A DNA stretch of 64,000 nucleotides from an uncultured Clostridia bacterium (GTDB taxonomy: Bacteria > Bacillota > Clostridia > Christensenellales > Borkfalkiaceae): the NCBI GenBank assembly GCA_944343275.1, contig CALVMH010000008.1, positions 20,335 to 84,334 on the forward strand. The letters are read 5' to 3'. Under the pieces are notes generated by a model. It was given only the letters and a program-made list of their open reading frames with translations, was not told where the DNA came from and ran no database searches. A program made the translations under genes and the position numbers. Below are positions 55,022 to 64,000 of this stretch, piece by piece; position 1 is the first letter of the stretch, and every line of letters starts with the position of its first letter.

Positions 55022-55273
55022 ATGGGATACAGAAAGGTTTATATCGAAGTTTCGGCGCGGTTTGCTGCGGAGGGCGGCGTGCGGCCCGTGGAGCTTGTCT
55101 GGTCGGACGGCAGAAAATATGCCGTGGATCGGGTGCGGTTTGCGGAACGCGCTCCTGCGCATGTCCCGTCCGTGCTTCCCGTCAGGTTCACCTGCATGAT
55201 CGGCGGCAAGGAAAAATTTCTTTATTTTGAACCGGACAGACTGCGCTGGTTCGTGGAGGTTTGTTCCTCGTGA
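55022..55273 (+). CDS. Small protein upstream of dinB, function unknown
   Basis: An 83-residue beta-rich protein (GYRKVYIEVSARFAAEGG, ELVWSDGRKYAVDRV, FTCMIGGKEKFLYFEPDRLRWFVEV). I recall similar small proteins encoded directly before DNA polymerase IV in other Clostridia, but no function is known to me. The stop overlaps the dinB GTG (GTGA), so the two are translationally coupled, which suggests a partner role in translesion synthesis; that is inference. The ribosome site is weak. Confidence 0.7.
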   Translation: MGYRKVYIEVSARFAAEGGVRPVELVWSDGRKYAVDRVRFAERAPAHVPSVLPVRFTCMIGGKEKFLYFEPDRLRWFVEVCSS

Positions 55274-56520
55274 AGGAGCGTTGTATTCTGCACAGCGATC
55301 TGAATAACTTTTACGCCTCCGTCGAGTGCCTGCGCCGTCCGGAGCTGCGCGACGTTCCCGTTGCGGTCTGCGGAAGTTTTGAGGACAGACACGGCGTCGT
55401 GCTCGCAAAAAACATGCCTGCAAAGCGGATGGGCGTCAGAACGGGAGAAGTATTCTGGCAGGCGCGCAAAAAATGCCCCGATCTTGTCAGCGTTCCCGCC
55501 GATTTTCCCGCCTATGTTCAAATTTCCAAGGCGGTGCGCGCCATTTATGCGCGCTACACCGACCGCATCGAGCCGTTCGGCATCGACGAATGCTGGCTGG
55601 ACGTGACGGAGAGCAGGCTGTTATTCGGGGACGGGGCGGCGATCGCACACCAAATCCGCGAATCGGTCAAGCAGGAGATCGGCGTAACGGTCAGCGTCGG
55701 CGTGAGCTGGAACAAAATTTTCGCCAAGCTGGCTTCCGATATGAAAAAACCGGATGCGGTGACGCAGATCGACCGTGAAAATTATCGCACGCTCGTCTGG
55801 CGGCTGCCCGCTTCCGAACTGCTCTATGTCGGCAAGGCGACGGCACAAAAACTTGCCTGCATGGGGATCGCCACCATCGGAGACCTTGCCTGTGCCGATG
55901 AACAAAAACTTACGGAACAGCTCGGAAAATGGGGGAGCGTTCTGCGGGCGTTCGCCAATGGCGAAGATGCTGCGCCCGTCGCCATGGAAACGGCATCCCG
56001 CGATATCAAGAGCGTCGGCAACAGCCTGACAAGCTACCGCGACCTCACCACGGAAGAAGATGTACGGCTGCTTTTTTACCTGCTTGCGGAAAGCGTTGCG
56101 GCGCGCGTTGCGGAAAAGCGGCTCGGCAAAGCGGAAACGGTCAAAATCAGCGTGGTGGACAATGCATTGAAGCATTACGGAAAACAGGGAAAACCTCCCG
56201 TTCCGACGCGCAGCGCAAAAGGGATCGCCGAGTTTGCCTTTACACTGTTTGCTTCACTCTATCCTTGGAAAAAGCCTGTGCGCGCGCTCGGGGTGACCGT
56301 CTGTGATTTTCTCGGAGAAAACGAACAGTTTTCCCTATTTGAAGAAGATAAACGGGAAGAAAAGGAGGAGCGGCTGGACGCTGCCGTCACCAAACTGCGG
56401 GAAAAGTACGGAAGCGGTTCCTTGAAGCGCGCTGCCGTCATGCAGGATGCGCGGTTCAGCGCCATGGACATCCGCGGCGAACATATCGTCCGTCCTGCCG
56501 ATCCGGGAGGAAAATTGTAA
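55270..56520 (+). CDS. dinB: DNA polymerase IV (Y family)
   Basis: A 416-residue Y-family polymerase: HSDLNNFYASVE (first catalytic Asp), GIDECWLDVTE (second acidic pair), SVGVSWNKIFAKLASDMKKP and helix-hairpin-helix GKATAQKLACMGIATIGDLA. The QFSLFEEDK sequence near the C-terminus resembles a beta-clamp-binding motif (Q-x-x-L-F). The start GTG 55270 lies ten bases after GGAGG; the TTG at 55261 is too close. It performs error-prone lesion bypass. Confidence 0.93.
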   Translation: MKERCILHSDLNNFYASVECLRRPELRDVPVAVCGSFEDRHGVVLAKNMPAKRMGVRTGEVFWQARKKCPDLVSVPADFPAYVQISKAVRAIYARYTDRIEPFGIDECWLDVTESRLLFGDGAAIAHQIRESVKQEIGVTVSVGVSWNKIFAKLASDMKKPDAVTQIDRENYRTLVWRLPASELLYVGKATAQKLACMGIATIGDLACADEQKLTEQLGKWGSVLRAFANGEDAAPVAMETASRDIKSVGNSLTSYRDLTTEEDVRLLFYLLAESVAARVAEKRLGKAETVKISVVDNALKHYGKQGKPPVPTRSAKGIAEFAFTLFASLYPWKKPVRALGVTVCDFLGENEQFSLFEEDKREEKEERLDAAVTKLREKYGSGSLKRAAVMQDARFSAMDIRGEHIVRPADPGGKL

Positions 56521-56561: not shown

Positions 56562-57656
56562 TCATACAGGGCGTTTTGCGGCACGCCATGCTTGCATTTT
56601 TTCGTTCTTCGTTTCTGTCGGACCGTCGGTGATATCAAACAAAAAAACGGAGCTTGAAGCTCCGTTTTTTTGTTTTGGTGCCGAGTGCCGGAATTTATTT
56701 GAACACAGGGAAAAAGAAGAAGCAGATCGAGTCGCCTCCTCGACCTGCTTTTCCAATTCCTCGACGTGTGCTTTTGAAAACCGCTCGTTTACTACATATT
56801 CTTGGAAGTTGTATGTAATGACCATGTGGTCGCCGTACCACAGAATTTCACGGATGAATGTATTTACGAGCAGCTTTCTTACCTTGATGTCGTCGGGGTC
56901 TCTCAATACTTTGGAGAGCAAATATTTTTCCACGTCTTCCACGGTGAGATGCGCATAGGTCTTCTGCGTTTCCTTGTTGATCTCAATTTCCAACATATTC
57001 AGTTCGTCCTGCAATGCGGCGAGCCTGTCTTTGGTAAAGTCCATGATGATGCCACGCTCGATGGCCTTTATGATATTATCTGCGGCGCGTTTCGCTTCGT
57101 CTCTCTTTTTGATGAGGATCTGCAACCCGGAATTGTCACGCATGATTTTTTCATGTTCTCTGACGATCGTCTCTGCGATTCGCATGATAACGCTGTTCCT
57201 TTGTAACATGGAAACGGTCGCGTCGATAACGGCGTCTTCCAATTCCTGTTTCCTGACGGCCTTGCAATCGCAATCCGCTTTCCCGCGCCGTTTGGAGAGA
57301 CAGACATAGTAGTAATGAATTTCTCCGTTCCGTGAAGTGCCGCTTTCTCCGCTCATGCGATGCTTACAATTTCCGCAGATGAGCTTCCCCGAAAGGATGT
57401 AGTCAAAAATTTCCTTTTTGCGGCTGGGCGATATTTTATTCTCCTGATTGATGGCGTCCACTTGGTTCCAGACCTCCTTTGTGATAATGGGCGGAAAGAT
57501 ATTGTAATAGACCGTTCCCTGATGCGTGACTTCTCCTATGTAACGTTTGTCATGCAGGATGACATAGACGTACTTATGGTCGATATACTTCCCGCATTTG
57601 CGGCGGATGTCTTTTTCTTTCAGTTCCTCCGCAATGGCGACGGCTTTGTATACGAA
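56562..57656 (-). pseudogene. Large serine recombinase, 5'-truncated remnant
   Basis: The frame covers the recombinase domain (AIAEELKEKDIRRKCGKYI, HDKRYIGEV), the zinc ribbon (LICGNCKHRMSG, CDCK), a long coiled coil and the C-terminal part (LLVNTFIREILWYGDHMVI). The ~150-residue N-terminal resolvase domain with the catalytic serine is missing: homology stops at about 57650, where the sequence continues as a BspA-like fragment on the opposite strand. An intrinsic terminator at 56641-56671 lies inside the last codons of the frame. It is a decayed integrase of a lost mobile element. Confidence 0.82.
56641..56671 (-). terminator. Terminator inside the remnant recombinase frame
   Basis: Perfect 15-base arms AAAAAAACGGAGCTT / AAGCTCCGTTTTTTT with a single central base; works on either strand. 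TGGTGCC lies just to the right (56676-56682). Confidence 0.85.
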
Positions 57657-59231
57657 TCGCCCTTGGATGATGAAACCTATGAGTCTACGGCGGAAGTATA
57701 TGTACAGCCGGGCGTGGAACGCGTTTGCACCGGAGGTTTGTATCCGGGGCATGGCTCTTGTTTTGCCGTATGCCAGCTACCTTCTACCTGTAAAGTATTG
57801 GAAAAAGGCGCGCTCTATACGTCGGATCTGCGCGCGGGCACAGGGCTTGCGGTGATCAAAGAAGATAATCATATCGCCTTTGCAGGTCCCGTATGTTTTC
57901 CCGATTCGCTGGAATATTGCGCAGCTTCTCTGACAGCATATACAGACACGGAAAAGGCGACGATAGAAGAGGACGGCGTGAATTACGTGGGCAATCCCAA
58001 CAACCCGCACATGATCGCTTTCTCCTATGAACTCGGGAAAAGAGGGGCGAACGTGGTGTTGAACGAGAACTGTAAGATCGTGCAGTCGGAACTCTTCAAA
58101 GGATACACAAAGTCAATTGCTCTTCCCGAGAATCTTACGCACATCGGTGCGAGCGCTTTCCGCAATACGGGCATCACTGTCCTCGATATTCCCGATTCGG
58201 TCAAATACATAGAAAATTATGCCTTTGGCGAATGTAGCCTTACGCAAGTGAGTCTACCCGACTCCGCCGTGTACATTGCGACCGACGCCTTCGGCGACGC
58301 GTCGCAGACGCTCCCCGGCACTGAATACGGCAGGTGCATCTATCTGGGTACTTCTTCCAACCCGTATTATTATCTGCTGCGTGCGAAGGCGTATGAGGAT
58401 CTCGACCCGACGACAGACACAACGGGTTACATTATCCACGAAAACACTAAAATCATCGCGGAAAATGCCTTCATTAACGCTTCGCTCGTCTGGAGCTACG
58501 ATAACAGCCAATACAACTATGATGAGATGATCTATGAGGCACTGTCCGTGACCGTGCCCGACGGTGTCATAGCGATCGGCGAAAAAGCGCTTAACAGCAC
58601 AGATCATTACTTGGTCAGCATATCTATGCCCGGCAACTGGCCGTACCTACATGACGATATTAAAGTCGAAGCAGACAGTGCAAAGCCCCTTTCCTACTTC
58701 ACGGGTGTACTCTGTACGATGAAAGATGACGGCAAAGGCGAAACGTCCGTCACCATACGCGACGGCTATACGACCGTCGAACAATATGCCTTCGGCGGAC
58801 TTGGCTACCTGGACGAACTTATCCTGCCCTCGAGCGTTACGGCAATTGCGGACGGCGCATTCAGCCAAAGTTCGGTAGGCTCCACTCACTATGACACGAC
58901 CGTTTATACCCTCACTGCGCCCTATGTCCCGGCCGCACGGGCGAACAGTCCCTGTGCCACGGCCACGCTCTTAAACGATTGCGGGGCAAAACACCTCATA
59001 CTCGCAGGCGACGTTACGGAGATCGGCGTAAATGCGTTCCGCTATTGCGAAAATCTCGAATCGATAACCTTCCCCGAGAGCCTGACTTTGATCGGAAACA
59101 CTGCGTTCATGGACAGCACCAAAGTCACAAATGTTACCTTCCTCGGCACGCAGGAGCAGTGGGAAGTTGTCGAAAAAGGCAGTTACTGGCTTCCTTCTTC
59201 AGCCGAATATGAAATGGTATATGGAAAGTAA
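57650..59231 (+). pseudogene. BspA-like leucine-rich-repeat protein, 5'-truncated
   Basis: The open frame continues upstream only as the antisense of the recombinase. From about 57660 it encodes an extracellular-type protein with several LRR_5/BspA repeats (LPENLTHIGASAFRNTGITVLDIPDSVKYIENYAF; LILPSSVTAIADGAF; VTEIGVNAFRYCENLESITFPESLTLIGNTAF). No signal peptide or start is left. The intact protein was presumably a surface adhesin-like protein. It ends with a normal stop and a terminator at 59291-59319. Confidence 0.75.
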
Positions 59232-60299: not shown

Positions 60300-61844
60300 C
60301 TACTTCAATCGGACAATTATCCCGAAGAAATCTCTTGCAAAAAAAAATACGAACCTCGACTCATTGCCTTGGTTCGTATTATTCTGGTCTGGTGCCCCGC
60401 GTGAAAACAAAGTTGAACTTTCGAGTTCTGCAAGGCTTATGGTTTCTTCTTTACCATTTGCGTTGTATATAATCTTTAAGTGGTCATCGTAAAGATAAAT
60501 GGCATTGATAAAAGTATCTATTATCTTGCGCTTACCTTCCTGCGTGGTTATGTCTATCTTGCGAAAGTTGGAGAGAGCCATTTTAAAATGGTCTTGCGAG
60601 AATATCGGAGCTTTTAGCTGTTCTTTGGCAATCGCGTCGCTTATCTCGCGCTTCTCCTTTTCCAGCCCGTCAAGTCGTTTCAATAGCGTTTCCGTCGCGT
60701 AACCCTTCTGCACGGCGTTGACGATATTTTCTATCTCTTTTTCCTTTTGTTTCAACTGCTCCCGCAACTTCGGGAGAATAGTACTCTCTGTGTACTGCAA
60801 CTCGTACAGCTTTGCCGAAAGCCTTTCAATAATGTCGTCGTCTTTTAGGAATTCCATAGTCTTATAGACAATGAAATCTTCCAGCTTGGTCTTGCTGACA
60901 GGCTTCTTTTCGCATTGGTGCTTCTTCTGCCGCACACAGGCATAATAGCGATAGACAACGCCTTTCGTGCCGCTTGTTCCTGCCTGCGCAACCATCATTG
61001 CGCCACATCTTCCACAGAAAAGTTTTGTGGTAAGCAGATAATCTTCATCTGCCGTATGCCTTGCAGGTGCCTTTGAGTTCTTGGTAAGTTCCAACTGCAC
61101 AGCATTGAATAGTTCTTCCGAAACAAGCGGTGGCACGCTGTTTTCTATCACCACGCCCATATGGTGATACTCTCCGATATAAACTCTGTTAGAAAGCATA
61201 TAGCGAATCGCATTGTATCTCAATGCCTTGCCGTTCGAGCGCGTTACCTTGCGCTCGTTCATTATGCGATAGATCTCTTTTACCGTCTTTCCGTCGTTGC
61301 ATAACTTGAAAATCTCTTGGACAACTGGCGCGGCTTGCGGGTCAACATCGAGCTTGCGCTCATTATTTATAACATAACCGAACGGAACGTTGCCTCCATT
61401 CCACAATCCTTTTAAGGCGTTCTCCTTCATGCCACGCGTTACCTTTTCGGCAAGCTCGGCTGAATAGTATTCTGCCATACCTTCGAGGACGCTTTCCAGT
61501 AATATTCCCTCGGAGCCTTCGGCAATTGTCTCCTTTGCAGAGATGACCTTTACTCCATTTTTGCGCAACAGTGCTTTATAGTGCGCGCTATCATAGCGGT
61601 TACGGGAGAACCTGTCCAACTTCCAGACGATAATACAGTCGAAAGCGTGTTTGTAACTGTCCTTAATCATTCGCTGAAATTCTGGGCGGTGGTCTGTCTT
61701 TGCCGAAAACGCGCGGTCTATGTAGTTGCCGATGACCTGAATATCGTTATAGGTCGCATACTCCATACATTCGCGTATCTGACCTTCTATCGAAGCTTCG
61801 GTCTGGTTATCACTCGAATACCGAGCGTAAATAACTGCTCTCAT
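60300..61844 (-). CDS. Large serine recombinase (site-specific integrase)
   Basis: A 514-residue recombinase. N-terminal resolvase domain: IYARYSSDNQTEASIEGQI with catalytic Ser at residue 10, WKLDRFSRNRYD, and EGMAEYYSAELAEKVTRGM. Then the recombinase domain (GYVINNERKLDVDPQAAPVVQEIF), zinc ribbon (FCGRCGAMM, CVRQKKHQCE) and coiled coil. It should integrate and excise the element to its right. ATG 61844 with AAGGAT upstream replaces a longer frame. The last ~30 codons run through a terminator (60339-60380), so the C-terminal end is probably not original. Confidence 0.92.
   Translation of the reverse strand: MRAVIYARYSSDNQTEASIEGQIRECMEYATYNDIQVIGNYIDRAFSAKTDHRPEFQRMIKDSYKHAFDCIIVWKLDRFSRNRYDSAHYKALLRKNGVKVISAKETIAEGSEGILLESVLEGMAEYYSAELAEKVTRGMKENALKGLWNGGNVPFGYVINNERKLDVDPQAAPVVQEIFKLCNDGKTVKEIYRIMNERKVTRSNGKALRYNAIRYMLSNRVYIGEYHHMGVVIENSVPPLVSEELFNAVQLELTKNSKAPARHTADEDYLLTTKLFCGRCGAMMVAQAGTSGTKGVVYRYYACVRQKKHQCEKKPVSKTKLEDFIVYKTMEFLKDDDIIERLSAKLYELQYTESTILPKLREQLKQKEKEIENIVNAVQKGYATETLLKRLDGLEKEKREISDAIAKEQLKAPIFSQDHFKMALSNFRKIDITTQEGKRKIIDTFINAIYLYDDHLKIIYNANGKEETISLAELESSTLFSRGAPDQNNTNQGNESRFVFFFARDFFGIIVRLK
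60339..60380 (-). terminator. Intrinsic terminator inside the recombinase frame; possible att site beside it
   Basis: On the minus strand AATACGAACC, a 15-base loop, GGTTCGTATT and a T run of seven or more. TGGTGCC lies at 60390-60396, ten bases from the stem, the same geometry as in the remnant recombinase. Confidence 0.8.
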
Positions 61845-61857
61845 GGTTCTATCCTTA

Positions 61858-62403
61858 TTACTGTTTAATTTTTGTTTCGTCAAGAATAAGCAAGCTTGGA
61901 TCACATGTGCCTGAGCTTAAATTATCTTTGTTGACTTCTCCGCAATTTATAATTTGTATGGTTTTACCCTTGATTTTACCGCCAAAAGTAAATTCACATC
62001 TAAATTCTGAATGACAATGAGAGCATAAGAACCGATAAGCTGAACCGTCCTGCTTTACATATAATTCCTGCGGTTTGCCGCAAAACACGCAATTCGGAGT
62101 AGCTTTGCGCAATATATCTATATATACCGAATTTAGTCCTGAATTTTTATAACCCTTGGGCGGAAAGCTTTGGTTGTAGAAATCTTTATCAGCCACATCT
62201 CCGTCATACTCGTGCGAAAACCCACATTTAGCACATTGATAAGTAGTCTTTTGCTTACCGGAAAAGCCTGCGGCTAAGCCAATGCCACCCAATAGCACGC
62301 CGCCAATTATAGCATGCTTTGAATTAAATCCTTTCTTAGATGTGTCTATCAATTTCCAACCGTCTCTTTCTCCACACATAGGACAACAATCTGGCGCTTT
62401 CAT
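61858..62403 (-). CDS. Zinc-ribbon protein with a glycine-rich membrane-like segment, function unknown
   Basis: A 181-residue protein with two pairs of zinc-ribbon cysteines in the N-terminal part (CPMC, CAKC) flanking a hydrophobic glycine-rich helix (AIIGGVLLGGIGLAAGF), and a second ribbon (CVFC, CSHC) near residues 110-135. I do not recognise the family. It starts four bases after the preceding gene and ends 13 bases before the recombinase, so the four genes look like one operon. AT-rich composition differs from the chromosome to the left. Confidence 0.7.
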   Translation of the reverse strand: MKAPDCCPMCGERDGWKLIDTSKKGFNSKHAIIGGVLLGGIGLAAGFSGKQKTTYQCAKCGFSHEYDGDVADKDFYNQSFPPKGYKNSGLNSVYIDILRKATPNCVFCGKPQELYVKQDGSAYRFLCSHCHSEFRCEFTFGGKIKGKTIQIINCGEVNKDNLSSGTCDPSLLILDETKIKQ

Positions 62404-62406
62404 AAA

Positions 62407-62850
62407 TCAACCCTCACACATATATTCTTGTTTTACAGTAAGATAACCACCCCAATGATTGGTTACGAACCCTGCCCAATCAAGAATGGCAGCATAGTAA
62501 GTAGAACGTCTTGTGGTCTTTTCCCCGACCGTCTTACCATAAAACTCAATTGCAACAAAGGCATCTATTGTATCGACAGGAAACTCGTTGCTTCCTATTT
62601 TAAGACCTTTCTGTGCTGCACTTGCTCCAAAGTACATTTTACCGCCAAGAGAAATTGCCATTTCATAAATCGCGTACAAAGCTTCAAATGTGCAATTAAT
62701 TGGAAAACGGTCGTTTATAATTCCATCACAATTTTCTGACAGCCAAAGGTTCATTATTCCGCCTTTAAGCATTTTATATTGTGACTTACCGCCATTGCGT
62801 TCTAATTTTTCAATCATCGTCTTCTTAAAATCCAAGTAACTTATTTTCAT
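62407..62850 (-). CDS. Hypothetical protein of the mobile-element operon
   Basis: A 147-residue protein starting at ATG 62850, with GAGG seven bases upstream (an in-frame TTG at 62856 is less likely). No motif is recognised; YYAAILDWAGFVTNHWGGYLTVKQ at the C-terminus and DAFVAIEFYGKTVGEKTTRRS are conspicuous. It overlaps nothing but is tightly packed between the DUF7662-like gene and the zinc-ribbon gene. Function unknown; a role as cargo of the integrated element is inferred from position only. Confidence 0.65.
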   Translation of the reverse strand: MKISYLDFKKTMIEKLERNGGKSQYKMLKGGIMNLWLSENCDGIINDRFPINCTFEALYAIYEMAISLGGKMYFGASAAQKGLKIGSNEFPVDTIDAFVAIEFYGKTVGEKTTRRSTYYAAILDWAGFVTNHWGGYLTVKQEYMCEG

Positions 62851-62852
62851 AT

Positions 62853-63239
62853 TCAAACCTCTGTTAAATTCCTGATAAAGGTTACACTGTTACTATCGGC
62901 GTTAACGCGCGTTTTATAACCCACAGCCAGCCAGCTCGATGCGTAAGAATGAGTTTCAGTGTTAGCCCAATATGATTGTTTGAATTTTCTCGCAGTTTCA
63001 GGTAAGGGAAACCCCAATATATCTTCAAGCTGCGAATATGAGAGTGTAACTCTTGTTTGGTTTGACTGTAATAAATATTCCGTCAACCCTCTGTACTTTG
63101 CGCTGACTTTGTCAAGTTGCATATCATCCTTGGACTGTGGCGAGGCCGTATTATCCATTTTAGCCTCCAATATCTTGACTTTATTTTCAAGCACTTTAAT
63201 ACGCTCCAACATTTCCAATATTACCTGGCTGTATTCCAT
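62853..63239 (-). CDS. DUF7662-like protein with an N-terminal coiled coil
   Basis: A 128-residue protein. Residues ~5-30 form a leucine-rich coiled coil (MLERIKVLENKVKILEAKM). The C-terminal ~80 residues (KYRGLTEYLLQSNQTRVTLSY, QLEDILGFPLPETARKF, SYASSWLAVGYKT) follow a pattern I associate with DUF7662 domains, which have no established function. AAAGGAG precedes ATG 63239 and a consensus promoter drives it, so it is the first gene of the four-gene unit ending in the recombinase. Confidence 0.68.
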   Translation of the reverse strand: MEYSQVILEMLERIKVLENKVKILEAKMDNTASPQSKDDMQLDKVSAKYRGLTEYLLQSNQTRVTLSYSQLEDILGFPLPETARKFKQSYWANTETHSYASSWLAVGYKTRVNADSNSVTFIRNLTEV

Positions 63240-63422: not shown

Positions 63423-63440
63423 TACAAACAAATGTTTGTA
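63423..63440. promoter_or_regulatory. Operator-like palindrome upstream of the RNA promoter
   Basis: Perfect TACAAACA-AA-TGTTTGTA, ending six bases before the -35 box at 63447. Confidence 0.6.
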
Positions 63441-63446
63441 TTTCTA

Positions 63447-63475
63447 TTGACAGTGGTAACTTTATATGATATAAT
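63447..63475 (+). promoter_or_regulatory. Consensus promoter of the candidate structured RNA
   Basis: TTGACA at 63447-63452, a 17-base spacer and TATAAT at 63470-63475. The first perfect hairpin begins within three to five bases of the -10 box, at the expected transcription start. Confidence 0.82.
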
Positions 63476-63725
63476 GCAAGAGTACAGGCGAAAGCGCTGC
63501 CTGTACTCTTTTGCCGTACAATTAAGATTGTACAGGTACTCCTCTTCTACGAGAGAGTTTAGCGCAGATATGACTGCGCCGCAGAGCGCATTGCTCTGCA
63601 AGGATTTCAGCGCAAAAACGCGCTGCACCCGAGCCGTCTGAAAGACGCGCCATAATGGAGCTTTATAGTGTTTTGTTTATTTGAGAAAGCTCCGTTAAAT
63701 GGCTGTCTTTCTTCGAGCGAAGACA

Positions 63726-63762
63726 GGCTTATTTTGTGTTACAGTTTTTTAGGAAATAAGTC
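63726..63762 (+). repeat. U-rich-loop hairpin repeat, unit A
   Basis: 37 bases, aligning without gaps with unit B at about 27 of 37 positions. The ends GGCTTATTT/AAATAAGTC pair (with one G-U), enclosing GTTACAGTTTTTTAG. Confidence 0.6.
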
Positions 63763-63798
63763 GTTATCACCTTCGTTAGGAAAAGATGTACGATGAAA

Positions 63799-63835
63799 GG
63801 CTTTTATTGTTGTACAATTTTTTAGCGAACAAGCC
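63799..63835 (+). repeat. U-rich-loop hairpin repeat, unit B
   Basis: 37 bases; ends GGCTT/AAGCC pair, enclosing TGTACAATTTTTTAG. It starts 73 bases after unit A. Confidence 0.6.
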
Positions 63836-63860
63836 TAAAATATCTCGCATTTTTGGACGC

Positions 63861-63906
63861 GCCTTGATGGGTTTTTTTAGCGTACAAATTTTCAGATAAC
63901 CGAGGC
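63861..63906 (+). repeat. U-rich-loop hairpin repeat, unit C (diverged)
   Basis: 46 bases; GCCT/AGGC ends enclose a U7 run and CGTACAAATTTTCAG, related to the loop sequence of units A and B. Confidence 0.45.
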
Positions 63907-64000
63907 GTAAACAAAAGCAAATCAACCGAAAATTACATAGAATGGCTAACCACCATAGAGCTTACAGCTAAACAAGGTTTTAAGTCGGTGATCGCGTTAC

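Follow-up and report, generated by a model that had tools for sequence, protein, structure and literature searches.

Attenuators place a promoter, a structured leader, an intrinsic terminator and a short, stall-prone leader ORF ahead of the genes they regulate, and mobilization modules of the pMV158 type join a MobV relaxase to an oriT inverted repeat. RNA also serves transfer itself, since the island SGI1 encodes sgm-sRNA, which is required for SGI1 mobilization (PMC9299015). The functions of large ornate RNAs are described as still poorly understood (PMC12286853). The locus reported here encodes a real, conserved, structured RNA that is absent from Rfam and is carried on mobilizable elements, and it resembles each of these systems in part. 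With leader-peptide attenuators it shares a promoter, structured leader, intrinsic terminator, short ORF and downstream genes, but the leader is 250-800 nt long, the micro-ORF follows the terminator and the first gene apparently starts at AUH (AUA, AUU or AUC). As in pMV158-type MobV modules, an oriT-like inverted repeat lies directly upstream of a MobV relaxase, whereas GTG starts two of four plasmid MobV genes and ATG the other two (one annotated, one inferred). Like ROOL and GOLLD, large ornate RNAs of phages and prophages, the RNA is large, structured and found on mobile elements; it differs in being mostly shorter and in preceding a micro-ORF, an oriT-like repeat and a relaxase operon, and it matches neither in sequence or structure. 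Compared by description, sgm-sRNA is likewise encoded next to oriT, on a mobilizable island whose transfer requires it (PMC9299015), but SGI1 uses the tyrosine-recombinase-like MpsA and MpsB, its RNA is processed and small, and the abstract mentions no SOS box.

The window, by which we mean the whole 64,000-nucleotide stretch that was analysed, comprises bases 20335-84334 of contig C8 in the genome of an uncultured Clostridia bacterium (1.98 Mb, 92 contigs). Its last base is also the last base of the contig (G000:C8:84334), which cuts the structured RNA; the 3' half of the terminator, the micro-ORF, oriT and relaxase are therefore absent here, and we infer them from relatives. The features of the window are collected in Table 1. 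The element probably extends from the large serine recombinase to beyond the contig end, so that the recombinase, which is CcrB-like by NCBIfam with a score below the cut-off, and the structured RNA would belong to one element. In the intervening region, the 181-aa and 149-aa ORFs matched no family at cut-off. We lean towards the view that the RNA of the window is the 5' part of a leader on an integrative mobilizable element. A second, partial large serine recombinase with Recombinase and zinc-ribbon domains (56562-57752, reverse strand) lies beside a forward ORF (55261-56520) that, judged from its N-terminus, we take to resemble DNA polymerase IV; this pair is probably a remnant or the end of another element.

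Table 1. Location of the structured RNA, its promoter region and neighbouring genes, in positions of the window
Feature	Position	Strand	Basis or detail
Large serine recombinase, probable integrase	60300..61904	-	Pfam Resolvase, Recombinase, Zn_ribbon_recom
Three small ORFs (181, 149, 128 aa), probably element genes	61858..63239	-	128-aa ORF with DUF7662
LexA/SOS-box-like operator CAAACAAATGTTTG	63425..63438	+	Match to CRAACANNTGTTYG; directly upstream of the -35 box
Sigma-70 promoter TTGACA-N17-TATAAT	63447..63475	+	Read directly in the sequence
5' hairpin H1 (12 bp) and U run	63478..63512	+	Covariation, alignment A4 helix 1
5' domain, further hairpins including GUACAAUUAAGAUUGUAC, CAGCGC/GCGCUG and GCCGUCUGAAAGACGCGC	63513..63650	+	Fold energy; A4 helices 2-4
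Variable region, U-rich-loop hairpin modules	63651..63910	+	Repeated motif; module number differs among relatives
Conserved H-type pseudoknot	63940..63979	+	Covariation across 79 distinct relatives
Intrinsic terminator, 5' arm and part of loop, cut at contig end	63982..64000	+	Continuation in relatives

The promoter has exact consensus elements (-35 TTGACA at 63447-63452, a 17-nt spacer and -10 TATAAT at 63470-63475). The box beside it, CAAACAAATGTTTG, is the sole exact match to CRAACANNTGTTYG in the whole window, where 0.01 would be expected. We take this pattern to be the Bacillota-type LexA box consensus and checked it against the lexA promoter of the same genome, where the box preceding the lexA gene, AGAACAAATGTTTG, is equal at 12 of 14 bases; on the strength of this sequence match, CAAACAAATGTTTG is probably a LexA operator. 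Across 68 distinct relatives a LexA-type box was recognised in 46, compared with rates of 4.2% in shuffles and 3 of 63 in control segments, and the promoters of box-bearing copies are themselves sigma-70-like, 45 of 50 scoring 10-12 of 12. The box abuts or overlaps the promoter, as in an SOS regulon, so that DNA damage should derepress transcription. A recognisable box was not found in the other 22 of the 68 distinct loci, which counts against reading the RNA as an SOS leader. Neither L044 nor L054 yielded a LexA-type box; L044 has a different inverted repeat (TTCACCG...CGGTGAA) near its promoter, perhaps the operator of a different repressor.

The perfect stem of H1 (63478-63489 with 63499-63510) and its short U run stand at the expected transcription start. 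The fold of the RNA is more stable than that of shuffled sequences, both for 63482-63760 (z = -6.1; 0 of 200 shuffles as stable) and for 63482-64000 (z = -5.6; 0 of 100). Inverted repeats fold on either strand, and the opposite one is accordingly stable too (z = -4.6); the strand was therefore assigned not from energy but from the promoter, the terminator and the LexA-type box. In the alignment of 5' domains (A4; 27 sequences including the window), 98.5% of cells are paired, helices 2-4 are 97-100% paired and nine pairs carry double changes. The covariation score, for a structure derived from the alignment on which it was scored, is 0.297 against 0.197 in shuffles and was reached by 0 of 500, while the count of further pair types is unexceptional (93 of 500 shuffles). 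From 31 distinct 5' domains, L180, L130 and L138 were excluded because they have no clean start or are of another type, and L163 is also absent.

Downstream of the 5' domain the RNA is variable. In relatives its U-rich modules share the repeated form CUUUUAUAAG-N-GUACNNUUUUU; in the window, a motif script places two at about 63732 and 63801, and a third was recognised by eye at about 63868-63893, the script's own third match being a chance spacing. The length of this middle part varies, and the distance from the LexA-type box to the 3' motif is 252-809 nt in the loci surveyed. The longest copy, L021 (the same stretch as L111), owes its length to a 130-codon ORF inserted in this part of the RNA gene. 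Relative to the window, L028, L179, L146 and L107 carry 86-88 nt extra at one point; in these copies and, judged by eye, in L045, a structured insert resembling a small mobile repeat lies inside a U-rich module.

The longest sense ORF in 63482-64000 has 42 codons, and a 69-codon frame (63432-63641) begins before the -35 box. Among six close copies (85-90% identity), aligned in 15 pairs, none of the 63 gaps has a length that is a multiple of three; these frameshifting indels exclude a protein reading of the region. The initial annotation of this DNA had described a consensus promoter, a perfect 12-bp hairpin right after it, a dense run of hairpins downstream, three related U-rich-loop hairpins and no convincing protein, and each of these is present as described, two of the U-rich hairpins by motif and one by eye.

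Conservation of the RNA is highest in the 3' domain. Columns 6 and 17 of its alignment (A3) change together (GC 61, UA 7, AU 6), which identifies a hairpin whose loop pairs with a downstream GGU, that is, an H-type pseudoknot. Its helices in the window are P1 (63942-63945 with 63953-63956), P2 (63948-63951 with 63976-63979) and P3 (63959-63962 with 63966-63969). The terminator begins immediately afterwards, and its bases in the window continue as AUCAGCGRCUUUUUU in the relatives L028 and L189. In 79 distinct sequences 97.9% of the cells of pseudoknot and terminator are paired, and sliding the partners by 1-3 columns lowers this to 16-44%. Nine pairs have changed on both sides, a number equalled by 2 of 500 shuffles, and none of the 500 attained the covariation score of 0.225 (shuffles, 0.113), in an alignment fitted to a model without pseudoknot helix 1, where the fit favours the remaining helices; in helix 1, one of four pairs varies enough to assess covariation. 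The chance pattern matches L021:1533 and L032:340, together with the truncated L030, were excluded from A2. Paired bases thus covary and no frame is conserved, as is characteristic of structured non-coding RNA. Covariation was the check proposed in the initial annotation; it is significant against shuffles in both the 3' and the 5' domain and, with the absence of a protein, supports the large structured RNA on an integrated element that had been suggested there.

No gathering-level match was obtained in an Rfam scan of the window, and when 24,837 bases with the four copies of this genome (the window's being cut) were scanned at E <=10, only tRNAs passed the gathering score. Membership of ROOL, GOLLD, OLE, HEARO or any other Rfam family is therefore excluded, there being no covariance-model match, and the kinship with ROOL, GOLLD, HEARO or OLE first suggested for the RNA is not supported. 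Nor is there support for a link to a reverse-transcriptase or nuclease system, also suggested at first, the usual neighbour in relatives being a relaxase. A search of titles and abstracts, mostly in the open literature and excluding preprints, found no description of the RNA, of the micro-ORF ending Ile-Arg-Pro-Pro-stop (IRPP-stop) or of AUH-started relaxases.

Three further copies lie in the same genome, on contigs C27, C2 and C20, with 69-85% identity over the matched parts. DNA matches were found in 37 of 251 genomes of the family. The covariance model R1, built on the 3' domain, matched in 17 of 297 genomes sampled from the order, including that of the window and several family members; among 391 genomes sampled from the class it gave no credible match outside the order, the four class-level matches (L071-L074, 31-35 bits) being ordinary terminators. 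No DNA match to the C2 copy was found in plasmid and phage collections. A pattern scan returned 115 stretches in named genomes, Pumilibacter and Anaerocaecibacter among the carriers, and four in viral contigs; 90 of these 119 loci reach 50 bits. The 29 below 50 bits do not enter the relaxase counts, for which at least 50 bits and 1.2 kb of downstream sequence were needed; ten of them still precede MobV (L086, L087, L097, L153, L170, L172, L173, L175, L184 and L194) and are probably divergent members, and the others are mostly unrelated terminators or coding matches. The carriers are mobilizable elements of Borkfalkia-like Clostridia (the NCBI taxonomy places Borkfalkia under Christensenellales and Pumilibacter under Eubacteriales), and the assignment of a few matching contigs to Scatousia, Traorella or Alphaproteobacteria may reflect binning errors. 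Of the other copies in the genome of the window (L009, L010 and L011), that on C27 has a type II restriction-modification pair beside it, that on C20 a restriction enzyme-like protein and that on C2 an ATPase matching PDC-S01 of PADLOC; the restriction-modification genes and the PDC-S01-like ATPase would be cargo of the elements.

What follows the RNA can be read in L189, which is 88% identical to the window over 579 nt and continues with the terminator, a micro-ORF encoding MNKQTTIRPP-stop, an oriT-like repeat and a MobV gene read from ATA. At 56 of the 67 loci with enough sequence, a relaxase lies downstream on the same strand (47 MobV and 9 MOBP; counting distinct loci only, 44 MobV, 8 MOBP and 10 without), and at none of the 67 was one found reversed or up to 3 kb upstream of the RNA. 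Relaxase families were checked on representatives with PF01076, PF03432 and the NCBIfam MobV model, one protein matching NF041497 (MobV) with 165 bits at a cut-off of 100. The relaxase search identified neither MobV nor MOBP at the remaining 11 loci, which include L127, with a MobL relaxase (PF18555), and L100, with a short MobV-like fragment. There are also RNAs with a whole 3' domain and no relaxase found behind them, for example L114 and L084, and in L198, an IMG/VR contig of 14,518 bases, the 3' domain precedes phage packaging genes (a lambda-type portal and a Clp-like protease). When, conversely, 30 MobV loci were taken as the best per family genome with the domain, 20 had a 3'-domain match, always upstream and on the same strand.

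An oriT-like repeat of MobV type lies between RNA and relaxase at 47 of 47 MobV loci (42 of one type, five of a second), a figure that is partly fitted because the definition was widened after a narrower form had given 24 of 47 and the misses had been inspected; with the final definitions neither type occurred in its control windows (0 of 535 and 0 of 768). Relatives thus carry a MobV relaxase adjoining an oriT inverted repeat, the makings of a MobV module, and in the window the contig ends first. Between terminator and relaxase, the best sigma-70-like scores at 49 MobV loci are no better than those of shuffles. L142 and L193 have TTGACA-N18-TATAGA after the terminator, scoring 10 of 12, as do four shuffles. 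As in an attenuator, an intrinsic terminator stands between promoter and gene in the relatives with no other promoter, save for the 10-of-12 site at 2 of 49 loci; inspection by eye revealed no convincing mutually exclusive anti-terminator. With no promoter above chance in this interval, the simplest reading is that the SOS promoter transcribes the relaxase through the RNA, which would then be its leader.

A micro-ORF that is led by a Shine-Dalgarno sequence and ends in Pro-Pro-stop lies within 220 nt of the terminator at 58 of the 74 distinct loci, whereas 4489 control windows contained none. It has six to ten codons and starts 66-82 nt past the U run in 57 of the 58 loci and 161 nt past it in one. 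The end is IRPP-stop in 46 of the 58, and the others keep Pro-Pro after another residue; because Pro-Pro-stop was part of the search pattern and Ile and Arg were not, only the frequency, the Ile-Arg and the position of the micro-ORF are informative. Synonymous codons are used for Ile (ATC, ATA, ATT) and Arg (AGA, CGC, CGA, AGG), and all three stops occur, which is a coding signature. Three of the 16 misses (L116, L163 and L136) carry the micro-ORF with a Shine-Dalgarno sequence outside the search expression, and the misses L100 and L165 have IRPH-stop and IRPL-stop. In L127 and L198, Met-Arg-stop replaces IRPP-stop and the next gene starts with AUG. At the micro-ORF position, L101 and L123 have MDTS-stop and MNNF-stop ORFs with strong Shine-Dalgarno sequences. 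Micro-ORFs ending YRPP-, HPP- or YPP-stop were seen in more divergent MobV elements (L200, L202, L215, L219, L220 and L222).

From its sequence, the first transfer gene appears to start at AUA, AUU or AUC. Initiator codons could be placed at 52 of 66 distinct loci (AUA 41, AUU 6, AUC 3, UUG 1, ACG 1 and AUG 0), giving AUH at the predicted start of 50 of 52 assigned MobV genes, with some uncertainty in the exact start where AUH codons are adjacent. Placement relied on the conserved N-terminus (SYLVCH and similar), on Shine-Dalgarno spacing and on several loci that lack a nearby AUG (such as L089, L101 and L109); the 14 unassigned loci comprise MOBP cases, genes that are degenerate or out of frame, and loci that could not be placed. 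In all nine MOBP operons a Shine-Dalgarno sequence precedes AUC or AUU at the predicted start of the first gene, and in the one tested, L091, that gene is NikA/MobC-like; where it could be placed, the MOBP relaxase behind the first gene has its own Shine-Dalgarno sequence and ATG (five loci) or GTG (one). Several of the ten MobV loci without a 3'-domain match also have AUH starts, L213 has ATG, and two loci with weak 3'-domain matches have ATG (L200) and ACG (L202). AUH starts are therefore a habit of these relaxases, one shared by loci with a detected RNA and loci without. The RNA model found no match in the stretches of the four plasmid MobV genes, among which only L233 has sufficient upstream sequence.

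We propose, with a probability of roughly 60%, that this is a long, non-coding, structured leader RNA which controls a mobilization operon, is SOS-inducible and gates expression at the promoter, the terminator and translation. Its anatomy, conservation, orientation and coding signature come from sequence comparison; SOS induction, read-through control, stalling, low initiation and their joint action would operate as follows. DNA damage would derepress the LexA-boxed promoter of a transcription unit of about 250-800 nt, made up of the 5' hairpin domain, variable U-rich modules, conserved pseudoknot and intrinsic terminator, and most transcripts would end at the pseudoknot-terminator. Read-through would yield an mRNA carrying the micro-ORF, at whose Pro-Pro-stop ribosomes would probably pause, and the AUH start would keep relaxase synthesis low unless initiation conditions favour it. 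Ribosomes are slowed by Pro-Pro ahead of a stop codon, and IF3 discriminates against AUH starts, so two translational brakes would follow. Transfer of the element would then require three things at once: DNA damage, read-through and a permissive state of translation. The position of the micro-ORF after the terminator, not before it as in classical attenuators, speaks against the leader reading, as do the lack of a convincing anti-terminator, the RNAs with a whole 3' domain and no relaxase found behind them, the phage-like contig L198, the Met-Arg-stop and AUG start of L127 and L198, the promoter-like site of L142 and L193 and the AUH starts of MobV genes with no detected RNA. The initial annotation had named as refuting a large RNA the finding of a short leader that terminates early before an ORF; a terminator and then a transfer operon do follow, but the RNA is not short (252-809 nt) and is itself conserved.

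A discrete terminator and a very conserved 3' pseudoknot would also suit an SOS-induced non-coding RNA that ends at its own terminator and acts in trans on transfer, on helper conjugation machinery or on host translation, as would the retention of the RNA with different relaxase types (MobV, MOBP and MobL) and on one phage-like contig. The sgm-sRNA of SGI1 provides a precedent (PMC9299015). We regard such a trans-acting role as possible but tentative, given that the RNA is upstream of and co-directional with the relaxase in 56 of 56 cases found, that no separate relaxase promoter rises above chance and that the micro-ORF and AUH start would share the read-through transcript. AUA, AUU or AUC starts are predicted for the first genes of two unrelated relaxase systems, MobV and MOBP; it is conceivable, albeit unlikely, that the RNA and the IRPP-stop micro-ORF license non-AUG initiation, on their own transcript or on ribosomes generally, the first transfer gene being translated only under SOS. 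We doubt strongly that the hairpin stack and terminator merely insulate the mobilization genes from read-through, as folds without specific function: the hairpin U runs and final terminator would indeed halt transcription, but a dedicated promoter directs transcription into the RNA, the pseudoknot covaries and unpaired bases are near-invariant. MobV plasmids carry single-strand origins near mob, and strand-specific hairpins beside oriT would fit a single-strand DNA structure used after transfer, but the LexA-type box and promoter, the U-run terminator and the G-U alternations in helices fit RNA and make this highly improbable.

If the reading as an SOS-inducible leader is true, DNA damage would be tied to horizontal transfer through an RNA in common gut bacteria, on elements linked to restriction-modification genes nearby. 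Rfam lacks this RNA family, and the locus adds a conserved gene that encodes a peptide in six to ten codons, along with AUH starts before relaxases that look selected. The layered layout, with its Pro-Pro-stop micro-ORF and AUH-started first transfer genes, would surprise a specialist, and large ornate RNAs may gain a placement next to a defined process.
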